Positions 4,914 through 38,591 of a DNA stretch of 64,000 bases are shown piece by piece. Positions within the stretch are counted from its first letter, which is position 1. Every line of letters starts with the position of its first letter. This stretch comes from Bacillota bacterium (lineage in GTDB: Bacteria; Bacillota; Limnochordia; Darwinibacteriales; JAAYFS01): the NCBI GenBank assembly GCA_012728115.1, contig JAAYFS010000012.1, forward strand, positions 1-64,000, in the 5' to 3' direction. A model generated the notes under the pieces. The model had not been told where the DNA came from. It was given only the letters and a program-made list of their open reading frames with translations, and searched no databases. Both the position numbers and the translations under genes were made by a program.

Positions 4914-5165
4914 AATAAAAAAACTTCTTGCATCCCAAAATTAGGGACGTAAGAAGTTTACGCGGTACCACCCTAGTTGGCTTTCCAGAGAACGAAAAAC
5001 CCACTCTTTCCGATAACGGCGGATCCGGCAAGGCCTACTACTATTTCAGCCCGCAGTTCAGGAGTGAATTTCAATCAACTTTCTCCAAGAAGGCTCTCAG
5101 TTAATAACCTCCTCTCCCTGTGGATTCCGTTGACTTACTTGTCTCCATCATCACTTTTGTCGTTA
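4914..5165 (-). promoter_or_regulatory. T-box leader of pheST, specifier TTC (Phe)
   Basis: On the minus strand the T-box core AGGGTGGTACCGCG (4961-4974) is followed by a terminator stem (AAACTTCTT...AAGAAGTTT, 4921-4959) and a run of Ts. Upstream in stem I the candidate specifier codon TTC lies at 5066-5068. It occupies the same sequence context (GAAA-specifier-A) as the specifiers of the thrS and ileS leaders in this window. TTC decodes Phe, matching pheST. Uncharged tRNA-Phe would stabilise the antiterminator. Confidence 0.93.
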
Positions 5166-9589: not shown

Positions 9590-9830
9590 TTAAAAAACCC
9601 GCCCAAAAAATGGGACGAGTTTGCTCGCGGTTCCACCCAAATTGAATAGCTAAAAGACTATTCCACTTGATGCAGATAACGGTTGCCCCGGTTCAGCTTA
9701 GTCGGACTCGGATCCTTTCAGCTTCACTGCTTCGAGATGGTTTTCCACTAGTACTTCTAAAAGAAGCTTCCAGCTATTGCTTCTTCTCTCTGGTAGTAAG
9801 TAATTTAGTGTACTCTTTCTCTTCATTGCA
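9590..9830 (-). promoter_or_regulatory. T-box leader of thrS, specifier ACC (Thr)
   Basis: T-box core GGGTGGAACCGCG on the minus strand (about 9626-9639), followed by a terminator (ACTCGTCCCA/TGGGCGGGT with T6, about 9594-9622). The specifier codon ACC lies at 9739-9741 in the context GAAA-ACC-A, aligned with the ileS and pheS leaders here. Confidence 0.92.
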
Positions 9831-9851
9831 TTTTAGTATTAATTACTAGTC

Positions 9852-20417: not shown

Positions 20418-20655
20418 TAAAATTAAAAAATCTCTCCTCCACATAAGGGACGAGAGAAACCCGCGGTACCACCCTAGTAGAAATGATGAACATTTCCACT
20501 CTAATGGTTATAACGGAACCACCGACCTGACTTACTTAGCTTCAGCCAGGCAACTCAGGGGTGATCTTCAAAAAGCCATAAGGTTTCGGGCTCGCACCTA
20601 TCCCCGAATCTCTGAGACCCCGTTACTTTCCTACTCTCCCCATCATAGCTTTTAA
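20418..20655 (-). promoter_or_regulatory. T-box leader of ileS, specifier ATC (Ile)
   Basis: T-box core AGGGTGGTACCGCGG on the minus strand (about 20461-20475), followed by a terminator CTCTCGTCC/GGAGGAGAG with six Ts (about 20428-20455). Specifier ATC at 20563-20565 in the context GAAG-ATC-A. Confidence 0.93.
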
Positions 20656-35477: not shown

Positions 35478-35750
35478 TCAATAATTAAGGTCCAAGCGAC
35501 GGATAATATCAGAATAATGTTCTGCTTCATTTAGATCAACAATCACAAGGTCTCTACCGATTTTCTTGATGCCGCGCCACGGTATTACAATTACCTTTGA
35601 TTTAAAAAAACCTTTCCCATACGGGATAATAATTGAATCGACTTTACCTGTCTCAGTGTTTATAATCAGATCAGTTTCGTTGATTACCCCAAGCTTAATC
35701 CCTTCATCAAAACTCACTATTTCCTTGCCTGCTAAATCCGAATAACGCAA
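35478..35750 (-). CDS. ymxH: YlmC/YmxH family PRC-barrel sporulation protein
   Basis: A 90-residue PRC-barrel protein (MRYSDLAGKEIVSFDEGIKLG, then SIIIPYGKGFF and IPWRGIKKIGRDLVIVDL). TTG start at 35750 behind AAGGGGG. In Bacillus ymxH lies between the M16 protease gene mlpA and spoVFA; here the beta-barrel candidate, a stress protein and dapB are interspersed. Function unknown, sporulation-associated by context. Confidence 0.82.
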   Translation of the reverse strand: MRYSDLAGKEIVSFDEGIKLGVINETDLIINTETGKVDSIIIPYGKGFFKSKVIVIPWRGIKKIGRDLVIVDLNEAEHYSDIIRRLDLNY

Positions 35751-35762
35751 TAAACTTCCCCC

Positions 35763-37070
35763 TTAGAAGCAAAACCCTACGAAAACACGCCAATTGGTTT
35801 TGTCATCAAACCTCGCTAGCAGATTGCCGTTATCAGATTCACCATACCTTAACTCCCAAAACCGTGCCGCAAATCGGCGCTTTAAACTAAAATATTGATG
35901 TTTTCGACTCGTCTGCGGTTCAAATTTGTACACATACGAAAGATCATAAACGCTATTAATACCGAGTTCAAAACGATACCGATGCAAGAAATGATAATCA
36001 AAGCGTAATGAGACATTCGGATTTGGTTTCCAAACCAAGCGGCCGATGGGGTAGGATTCTGTAAATTGAAGACTAAGATGAGTTCTATCACCATTCGCAC
36101 TTAATGAAAGACGAGGCTTCGGCAACCATTCAATGATTGCCGAGAAACGCACTGGCTCCTCTTGATATTCTATGCGCTGATTAAACGAAGGATAACTGGT
36201 CGTTCCATCGATATTTACCACATGTTCATGGGAATAGGTAAGAATAAAAGGCTCGGAAATGAAACGTATGTTGAACTTAACTCCCTGACGATTAGGAGTA
36301 TACAAGTTGAGATGCGTTAATGGCGAACTAAAATTCTTGCCGATATGATATCCTTCAAAATTAAGATTGAAATTAGGAGAAATTTTTTGGGAGAGTTTAA
36401 TGATACCAGCTAGATCGAACTGTTTTTCGATACTGCCTCGTGATAAATCATTTCTATCGATCAATCCGACAGACCAATCGACTTGGATTTTCTCTTTGAT
36501 TTTTCCGTCAAGAACAAAAACGGTACCGTAGTTTCTGCGAAAGTCCCAATTTTCCCGTTCATTAATTTGGACCCACTGTAAAAAAGATTCAAAAAACGCT
36601 AAGGTGGTTTTAATATCATAGAAACTACCTTGAAAAAACAGTAATTTACTTGGGATCCCGTTTTTGACGGGAGTATTTTCACTGATAAGCAAGGTCCAAT
36701 CATTATTGCTCTTAAAAAGTAACTGTAATGCATTAGGATAAAAGTTGCTTTGCCTTAAAACTCGAAACGAATCCTTAGAAGTTAAATGAGGGGCATTGTA
36801 GAGTAATTGCAAGACACCATGCCGATTATTCCACTCCCATCGCCACTTAGTCCATGCTAACGTATTGTTTGAATAACTAACCTTGCCAGAAACAATTTGA
36901 TGTGAGTTAAGTTGATGATTTAAAGCTAATTGAATCGAGCTATCCAATCTAAAAGTATCAAGCTCAAGCATCGCTTCGTAATCTAATCCGATATCAGTCT
37001 GAGCTAAAGCTTCTAATGGAAGAATTAAAAGAAGGATTAGGAAAACAAAAAAGACTCCACGGATAGACAA
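35763..37070 (-). CDS. Secreted beta-strand-rich protein, candidate outer-membrane beta-barrel
   Basis: No family recognised. A 435-residue protein starting at TTG 37070 with AAAGGAGAG correctly spaced; an ATG 51 nt upstream lacks a spaced site. Residues about 5-23 form a signal peptide ending ALAQ. The rest has no membrane helix but many short strands alternating polar and aromatic/hydrophobic residues (for example FRVLRQSNFYPNALQLLF, SLSANGDRTHLSLQF, VSLRFDYHFLHRYRFELG), rich in Trp, Tyr, Phe, Arg and Asn. The final residue is Phe in WRVFVGFCF. These are hallmarks of porin-like barrels and imply an outer membrane (inference). It lies between an M16 protease gene and ymxH. Confidence 0.6.
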   Translation of the reverse strand: MSIRGVFFVFLILLLILPLEALAQTDIGLDYEAMLELDTFRLDSSIQLALNHQLNSHQIVSGKVSYSNNTLAWTKWRWEWNNRHGVLQLLYNAPHLTSKDSFRVLRQSNFYPNALQLLFKSNNDWTLLISENTPVKNGIPSKLLFFQGSFYDIKTTLAFFESFLQWVQINERENWDFRRNYGTVFVLDGKIKEKIQVDWSVGLIDRNDLSRGSIEKQFDLAGIIKLSQKISPNFNLNFEGYHIGKNFSSPLTHLNLYTPNRQGVKFNIRFISEPFILTYSHEHVVNIDGTTSYPSFNQRIEYQEEPVRFSAIIEWLPKPRLSLSANGDRTHLSLQFTESYPIGRLVWKPNPNVSLRFDYHFLHRYRFELGINSVYDLSYVYKFEPQTSRKHQYFSLKRRFAARFWELRYGESDNGNLLARFDDKTNWRVFVGFCF

Positions 37071-37110
37071 AGAATTCTCTCCTTTGGCCATCTCCCTTGG
37101 ACGTGGAGTC
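37053..37110 (-). promoter_or_regulatory. Inverted repeat enclosing the start of the beta-barrel candidate gene
   Basis: GACTCCACG (37102-37110 read on minus) and CGTGGAGTC (37053-37061) form a 9-bp stem. The 40-nt loop contains the ribosome site and TTG start. The distal arm is followed by T6-G-T4, so the structure could act as terminator of the M16 gene and attenuator of the next gene. Confidence 0.5.
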
Positions 37111-37131
37111 AGTTTTAATATACCATATAAT

Positions 37132-38394
37132 CTAATTATTTCCAATAATTTGTTTAAATTTTACATCCCCTGGAACTGGGCCGACAAGGGCACCACACCA
37201 ATTCCCCAGATCAAGGAGTCGCTTGGCTAGGGAAAAGACTTCCTCTGAAGTCACTAGCGAAATCGCATCGATTGTTTCATCAACTTCCACCAATCGCCGC
37301 TCCGATATTTCAGCTTTCGCGACCCTCATCATTCTATTAACTGTACTTTCTAGTGAGAGTAAAAAGCCACCCCGAAGAAGACTTTTTGCTCTCTCGATTT
37401 CCGCTTCATCCAATTCTAGGGTTGCCAATTTCCTTATTTCACTCACTAAGATATCTAGTACATACTCATGATCGTCGATTCCATATCCCGCATACACTCC
37501 GAAAGTTCCTGTTTCTCGATAAGCAGAATGATAAGAATACGTTGAATACACTAAACCTCTTTCCTCTCTCAGTTCTTGAAAAAGGCGTGAACTTGCTCCG
37601 CCCCCTAAAATGGTATCGAGTAAGAATAGAGCGTACTTTTCATGATCATCTCGCGCTAACCCCTGCCCACCTAAACAAAGGTGGACTTGCTCAATGTCTT
37701 TTTCCTTGGTTTGAAAAACACCTGTCGCTGTTGTAATCGAAGTTCTTCGTTTAGCTAAATAATTTGACGGTAATTTGGAAAATGCATCGGCGAAAAGATC
37801 GATAATTTGCTGATGATTCACATTACCTGCTGCAGCAATAATTAAGTTATTTGTGGTATAATGCTTTTGATAATAATCGAGTAGGTTTTGCCGCTTAGTC
37901 TCCAAAATGTTTTCTTTTGGCCCTAAAATATCCTTACCTAACGGATGATTGGGAAACAATAACTGATATAAAAGATCATGAACGAGATCGTCAGGACTAT
38001 CATCATACATGTTTATTTCCTGAACGATCACACTACGTTCTTTTTCAAGCTCTTTATCTAAAAATAATGATTCCAAAATCATTTCTTTTAAAATGTCGGC
38101 CGCTACTTCTAGGTATTCATCTAACACACGCACATAGTAACAAGTATGCTCTTTCGCGGTAAATGCGTTTAGTTGACCTCCCGACATATCAATAATCTCT
38201 GAGATTTCTTTGGCTGAATACTTCTTGGTTCCTTTAAATAACATATGCTCGATAAAATGAGAATAACCTCGCTCATGGTCTTCCTCATCTCTACTTCCAA
38301 CCTCAAACCAAATCCCCAGCGAAATAGAGCGAACATAAGGAATATACTCAGTAACTATCCGTAATCCATTTGGTAGTTCAGTTCGTTGATACAT
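37132..38394 (-). CDS. M16 family zinc peptidase (MlpA/YmxG-like)
   Basis: A 420-residue insulinase-family protease. The inverted zinc motif HFIEH is at residues 46-50, with the downstream Glu expected in the ERSVIVQEINMYDDSP region. The C-terminal half repeats the fold (GGGASSRLFQELREERGLVYSTYSYHS). ATG 38394 behind GGAGG is preferred over an earlier start. The B. subtilis counterpart is mlpA, next to ymxH and spoVFA. The protein has no signal peptide, so it is probably cytoplasmic. Confidence 0.9.
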   Translation of the reverse strand: MYQRTELPNGLRIVTEYIPYVRSISLGIWFEVGSRDEEDHERGYSHFIEHMLFKGTKKYSAKEISEIIDMSGGQLNAFTAKEHTCYYVRVLDEYLEVAADILKEMILESLFLDKELEKERSVIVQEINMYDDSPDDLVHDLLYQLLFPNHPLGKDILGPKENILETKRQNLLDYYQKHYTTNNLIIAAAGNVNHQQIIDLFADAFSKLPSNYLAKRRTSITTATGVFQTKEKDIEQVHLCLGGQGLARDDHEKYALFLLDTILGGGASSRLFQELREERGLVYSTYSYHSAYRETGTFGVYAGYGIDDHEYVLDILVSEIRKLATLELDEAEIERAKSLLRGGFLLSLESTVNRMMRVAKAEISERRLVEVDETIDAISLVTSEEVFSLAKRLLDLGNWCGALVGPVPGDVKFKQIIGNN

Positions 38395-38591
38395 AGATAC
38401 CTCCACTAGACATCAGAACTCGTCTTTTCATCTCCAGGTAATTCAATTTAACTTGGCAAAATCCTCTATCCTTGATTTTCTAATATTGATGATTATTGCT
38501 AGAAAAGGGGTTCTTTAACTTTAGATTTTTTACTTAGTCTATGATACCATATTAGATGTTACTGGCAATATATATGAAGGGGGGAATTTGG

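Follow-up and report, generated by a model that had tools for sequence, protein, structure and literature searches.

The existence of diderm Bacillota has served as an argument that the phylum descends from an ancestor with an outer membrane, but the make-up of these membranes is poorly known. Both genomics and electron microscopy have shown the Limnochordia to be diderm, and Limnochorda pilosa is a Gram-negative species that forms spores (PMC11456536, PMC11448272). Outer membranes in the class, this spore-forming species included, have already been published (PMC11456536, PMC11448272, PMC10628300), and cultivated isolates have yielded three closed genomes (PMC11456536). One outer-membrane barrel described from diderm Firmicutes (Bacillota) is OmpM, an SLH porin (PMC10628300). 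Among RNA elements at gene starts, a described example is E. coli ispU, which has an intrinsic 3′ end (PMC7815308).

Here we describe a gene for a predicted outer-membrane barrel in a member of the Limnochordia. It lies in a 64,000-nucleotide stretch of contig JAAYFS010000012.1 (assembly GCA_012728115.1), the whole of which is referred to below as the window. The gene starts within a conserved leader RNA that was not seen in the original prediction; this leader is the new part of the analysis and the one likeliest to interest a specialist.

The barrel gene and its genomic slot

The longest mechanical open reading frame spans 35763-37145 on the minus strand, and the frame used in the original prediction (35763-37070, minus strand) starts at the TTG at 37070 and ends with the stop at 35763. 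The TTG is likely to be the start, because the start codons of the orthologues (TTG, ATG or GTG) fall in the same alignment column. This is much more than a random open reading frame. The 435-residue product has a signal peptide at about residues 1-23, read by inspection as MSIRGVFFVFLILLLILPLEALA with Q following, and the barrel occupies about residues 27-435. In close orthologue pairs dN/dS is about 0.1-0.3, with dS near saturation, values that indicate a fast-evolving gene under purifying selection.

On sequence comparison, the barrel family is new to the libraries searched (Pfam, NCBIfam and PDB sequences). Searches with the window protein alone found no Pfam relative, no meaningful relative among PDB sequences and none on the genome contigs, so that orthologues had to be gathered by synteny. 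NCBIfam had no match for the 435-residue product, nor did Pfam for the window protein or the 29 orthologues, apart from one weak Porin_4 match. Of 61 genomes from the order and class, 30 gave matches, and a profile built from the 29 orthologues detected the family in 50 of 73 genomes belonging to the class. Across 399 genomes spread over the phylum, matches to this profile were confined to the same class.

The slot in which the gene lies reads M16 protease, barrel, ymxH, a YflT-like gene, dapB, dpaA, dpaB, asd, lysC and dapA, the last three being genes that we take to be such by sequence recognition. In family f4 a short open reading frame, presumably dUTPase-like (by recognition), stands between the M16 gene and the barrel. 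Neighbouring proteins are mostly 45-85% identical to those of the window, compared with 21-30% for the barrel protein. Long open reading frames occupy the same M16-ymxH slot in other orders, and profile-profile comparison relates them to the family of the window protein, the probabilities being 99.6, 99.1, 98.6, 97.5 and 92.5%. Families f7, f12, f13 and f15 and genome G002 have the slot without such a reading frame. The location in the mlpA-ymxH-spoVF block had been called unusual in the original prediction; this view was not upheld, as the same slot is conserved for the barrel family within the class. The positions of the features at the locus are given in Table 1.

Genus g3 (family f3) departs from this arrangement in two ways: G008, G011 and G015 have neither a barrel nor a strong match to the M16 protease of the locus, and G002 keeps the protease beside an empty slot. 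A sporulation-specific role, suggested by the neighbouring dpaA and dpaB, is not supported, since loci from families f2 and f5 that lack both genes (L029, L035 and L047) still have the barrel, together with its leader; these organisms may not form spores.

Table 1. Coordinates of the barrel gene, its leader RNA and the borders of the slot within the window
Feature	Position	Strand	Evidence
M16 peptidase (mlpA-like), upstream slot border	37132..38406	-	Pfam PF00675/PF05193
Promoter-like TTGGAA-17-TATATT, TG before -10, predicted start ~37110	37117..37145	-	same spacing in most orthologues
Conserved leader RNA (model R1), 69 nt	37046..37114	-	leader alignments, folding, covariation
P1 5′ arm ACTCCACG, predicted 5′ end of transcript	37102..37109	-	pairs with 37054-37061
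Unpaired bulge TCCAAGGGA holding AGGGA, candidate binding site	37093..37101	-	AGGGA invariant in leader alignments
Hairpin P2, GATGG/CTATC and CAAAGGA/TTCTTTG	37062..37092	-	pairs Shine-Dalgarno segment with start-codon segment
Shine-Dalgarno AAGGAG	37079..37084	-	sequence; AAAGGA predicted paired at 0.99 in the window
P1 3′ arm CGTGGAGT, codons Arg-Gly-Val	37054..37061	-	leader alignments
T-run directly after P1 stem, terminator-like, also Phe codons	37047..37052	-	sequence
Predicted outer-membrane beta-barrel protein	35763..37070	-	ORF, orthologues, AlphaFold2 model, topology and conservation
YlmC/YmxH sporulation protein, downstream slot border	35478..35750	-	TIGR02888

Predicted fold and the envelope of the host

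The AlphaFold2 model, for which the alignment of 29 orthologues was the input, has a mean pLDDT of 92.4, a pTM of 0.80 and 26 strands, with one interrupted strand merged in the count. Its only helix covers residues 3-24, in agreement with the signal peptide and absence of other membrane helices in the original prediction. A second model, from eight proteins of another order, is of lower confidence (pLDDT 69.7) and also has 26 strands. Both models have long loops after strands 5, 13 and 25. In the model of the window family, the turns after even strands comprise 2-4 residues and the loops after odd strands 2-6, except for these three, which have 23, 17 and 17 residues (92-114, 244-260 and 410-426).

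Most surface loops are less conserved than the strands. The opposite holds here, with conservation of 0.56-0.62 in the three long loops compared to 0.42 in the strands, and the loops therefore probably fold inward in the modelled structure, where they would gate or line the barrel; alternatively, they could be plug-free or extracellular.

Hydrophobicity alternates between neighbouring strand residues with a value of 3.02, compared to 1.68 +/- 0.23 in within-strand shuffles (p of about 5e-4), and Phe, Trp and Tyr make up 15.6% of the mature residues, in keeping with the amphipathic, aromatic-rich strands of the original prediction. The C-terminal Phe noted as a barrel mark also recurs: the last residue is aromatic in 28 of 29 orthologues (Phe in 23, Trp in 5) and Leu in the remaining one. 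The protein combines the general features of outer-membrane barrels: it has a signal peptide and a C-terminal aromatic residue, its amphipathic strands are antiparallel and even in number, the turns on one side are short, and its host has BAM. The top Foldseek matches are outer-membrane barrels (FimD, LptD, BtuB, PirA and AlgE), all with TM-scores of 0.5 or less, and a viral fold library returned nothing useful for the barrel model. As modelled, the barrel is without a close match among known families. We conclude that the protein is very probably an outer-membrane barrel with both termini and the short turns in the periplasm and the three long loops facing outward; the predicted fold is of the membrane type, which bears out the porin-like barrel of the original prediction.

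An Omp85/BamA carrying POTRA domains is encoded in the organism's own genome. Close to it are genes for TamB, two OmpH/Skp-like proteins and small barrel-like proteins, as well as LptF/G next to an LptD-like protein of 678 residues (the two at L051:2429-5581, on contig C45). Between LptF/G and OmpH, at L051:5614-7110 (-), lie two short proteins with weak matches to YjbH and to Toluene_X (FadL-like). An SLH and coiled-coil protein of 788 residues (L101:3797-6163) is encoded on the same contig as, and beside, a Porin_4-like protein of 503 residues (L101:1654-3165 (-)); the pair is possibly an OmpM-type tether. Of 61 relatives, 59 have Omp85; for those of good quality the count is 48 of 49. LpxC, the committed enzyme of lipid A synthesis, was not found in the organism's own genome (95.8% complete), reflecting either a gap in the assembly or an outer membrane that carries something that is not ordinary LPS. 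The host is almost certainly diderm. With BamA, TamB, OmpH/Skp, LptF/G, LptD-like and SLH genes present, the original prediction was right about the outer membrane, and this part of it is not new, as outer membranes of Limnochordia had been published before.

The leader RNA of the barrel gene

DNA around the start of the gene is strongly conserved, although identity of the protein falls to about 20%. The conserved elements of the leader follow one another in the order ACUCCRCG, YCC(A)AGGGA, GAUGN, CAAAGGAG, a short loop, UUCUUUG, NCAUN, CGYGGAGU and a U-run. The bulge with AGGGA is the best conserved part, the U-run follows P1 in nearly all leader sequences, and P2 is somewhat different in family f5. 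In most orthologues the predicted promoter, TTGGAA-17-TATAAT (TATATT in the window), would put the start of the transcript on the 5′ arm of P1 or immediately beside it. The leader has the make-up by which attenuators are recognized, a stem and then a U-run downstream of a promoter. The P1/U-run stem was not listed by a simple terminator scan, because the scan permits only loops of 3-8. We identified no convincing alternative fold of the leader.

The folding energy of the window leader is -27.4 kcal/mol, compared with -16.3 +/- 3.0 for shuffles. The predicted fold consists of two stacked helices, P1 between the 5′ end and the Arg-Gly-Val codons, with UUUUUU after it, and P2 between the segments of the Shine-Dalgarno sequence and the start codon. 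In a MAFFT alignment made from sequence only, 10 of 21 pairs are changed on both sides, the observed measures were reached by none of 500 shuffles, and 88% of cells are paired, compared with 37-56% in slid versions; these values are to be read in light of the fact that the structure was drawn from the same sequences used to test it and that the shuffle and slide controls are imperfect. P1 has 97% of its cells paired and three pairs with two-sided changes. With the alignment fitted to the model, 31 sequences give 11 two-sided pairs, and 24 two-sided cells where 9.1 are expected. In six sequences outside the set used to build the model, 46 of 47 P1 pairs are kept. Three orthologues (L037, L042 and L075) have the codon GGA replaced by GAA (Gly to Glu) and the 5′ UTR segment ACUCCG by ACUUCG, with the pairing kept. 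RNAalifold's own consensus is without hairpin P2; the structure used here was drawn by comparing sequences and tested with the shuffles and slides. Taken as comparative sequence evidence, these results make it highly likely that the leader is a real RNA structure.

Each genome in families f1 to f5 has one strong match to the leader, at the barrel gene. No strong match was found in other orders, nor in several genomes of the order that have no barrel. Weaker matches (E between about 0.0003 and 1) also occur, and some of these come from this hairpin read on the opposite strand. The G005 orthologue (L023) has no leader motif; from this and the absence of strong matches in other orders, we infer that the family at large can do without the leader. 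Against Rfam, no match to the leader scored over the gathering score, and a permissive search gave matches at chance level only. Elsewhere in the window, three T-box leaders score over the Rfam gathering score (20443-20655, 9608-9835 and 4940-5160 (-)).

Two wider roles for the leader were considered. A role as operon leader for the lysine and dipicolinate genes is not supported: the leader has no match in G002, where the slot is empty and the downstream genes remain, and it stays where dpaA/dpaB and ymxH are missing. A role as an element of a regulon was rejected, with just one strong match in each genome.

Proposed control and function of the barrel

We propose that, in the window's order, a strong promoter would begin the message with the 5′ arm of a long hairpin, inside which the Shine-Dalgarno sequence and the start codon would be hidden by pairing with each other. 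The outer stem, followed by the U-run of the first codons, could terminate transcription; with so large a loop, termination is less assured than for a simple hairpin. A factor at the invariant AGGGA bulge, or the entry of a ribosome, would open the hairpin, and synthesis of the barrel would depend on this opening. The product would be exported by Sec and inserted by BamA, encoded elsewhere in the genome. That the leader represses expression is likely. The explanation as a whole, a barrel with inward loops serving as a gated transport channel under a structured, repressive leader, is in our view somewhat favored. A gated transport channel is the likeliest single role for the protein, and we hold it tentatively. 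More doubtful is a dedicated switch that would pair the ribosome-binding site with the start codon, use the first codons as the 3′ arm of a terminator and sense a protein or ligand at the bulge, so that transcription and translation would both be shut off for a class-wide 26-strand barrel in a diderm spore-former.

The barrel could be real and yet be an outer-membrane enzyme, an LptD-like inserter of lipids or glycolipids, or a structural protein, and not a solute channel. The LptD barrel also has 26 strands, LptD is among the top fold matches, and an active site could lie in the conserved loops. However, the model lacks a periplasmic jellyroll domain, no neighboring gene points to a lipid pathway, and the separate LptD-like protein beside LptF/G led us to reject the barrel as the genome's own LptD. 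We regard this family of roles as possible and the gated channel as the better account.

A different question is whether the leader acts purely as a translational lock, as an RNA thermometer or a site of CsrA-type repression would, with a U-run stem that does not terminate. In most orthologues both the Shine-Dalgarno sequence and the start codon are predicted to be paired, 35 of 37 genomes from the order have CsrA, and the bulge contains GGA, so that CsrA might, hypothetically, be the factor that binds the leader. On the other hand, P1 is better kept than any other helix and the U-run comes after it in nearly all sequences, features that sit poorly with a lock acting on translation alone. The presence of CsrA is uninformative as a discriminator, since it is found in genomes with and without the leader. 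We consider a purely translational lock unlikely, and prefer a leader that could act on transcription as well.

It is improbable that the terminated leader, some 65-70 nt long, serves as a small regulatory RNA in its own right: such an RNA would run from the promoter-proximal stem to the U-run, but the element is always joined to, and in frame with, the barrel gene. A soluble exported beta-protein (propeller or helix) in a monoderm, which the signal peptide, the beta content alone and the lack of a Pfam match would allow, is rejected as barely credible given the high-confidence barrel model, its membrane-type topology and the outer-membrane machinery in this genome and across the class.

The barrel family is undescribed and occupies the same locus in most of a diderm class with cultivated members. 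The covarying leader, confined to the barrel gene in one order, suggests that the amount of barrel is controlled, and it offers a short, testable RNA element in which a terminator-like arm is coding sequence.

Compared with described systems, the window protein resembles LptD in being a large 26-strand outer-membrane barrel that retrieves LptD among its top fold matches, and differs in having no N-terminal OstA/jellyroll domain, no sequence similarity and no match to PF04453. The FimD usher, BtuB, the siderophore receptors and AlgE share the outer-membrane barrel fold, as top Foldseek matches; their TM-scores do not exceed 0.5, and the window protein has neither plug nor periplasmic domains, nor sequence similarity to them. 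Like OmpM, it is predicted to be an outer-membrane barrel of a diderm member of the Bacillota, whereas it has no SLH domain or stalk by Pfam, and the SLH proteins of the genome are encoded elsewhere. With attenuators, RNA thermometers, leaders that hide the ribosome site and E. coli ispU, the leader shares a predicted occlusion of the ribosome site and, where the gene begins, a stem with a U-run behind it. It differs from these known leaders in being without an Rfam match, in the predicted pairing of the Shine-Dalgarno sequence with the start-codon segment and in a terminator-like 3′ arm that consists of the conserved Arg-Gly-Val codons.
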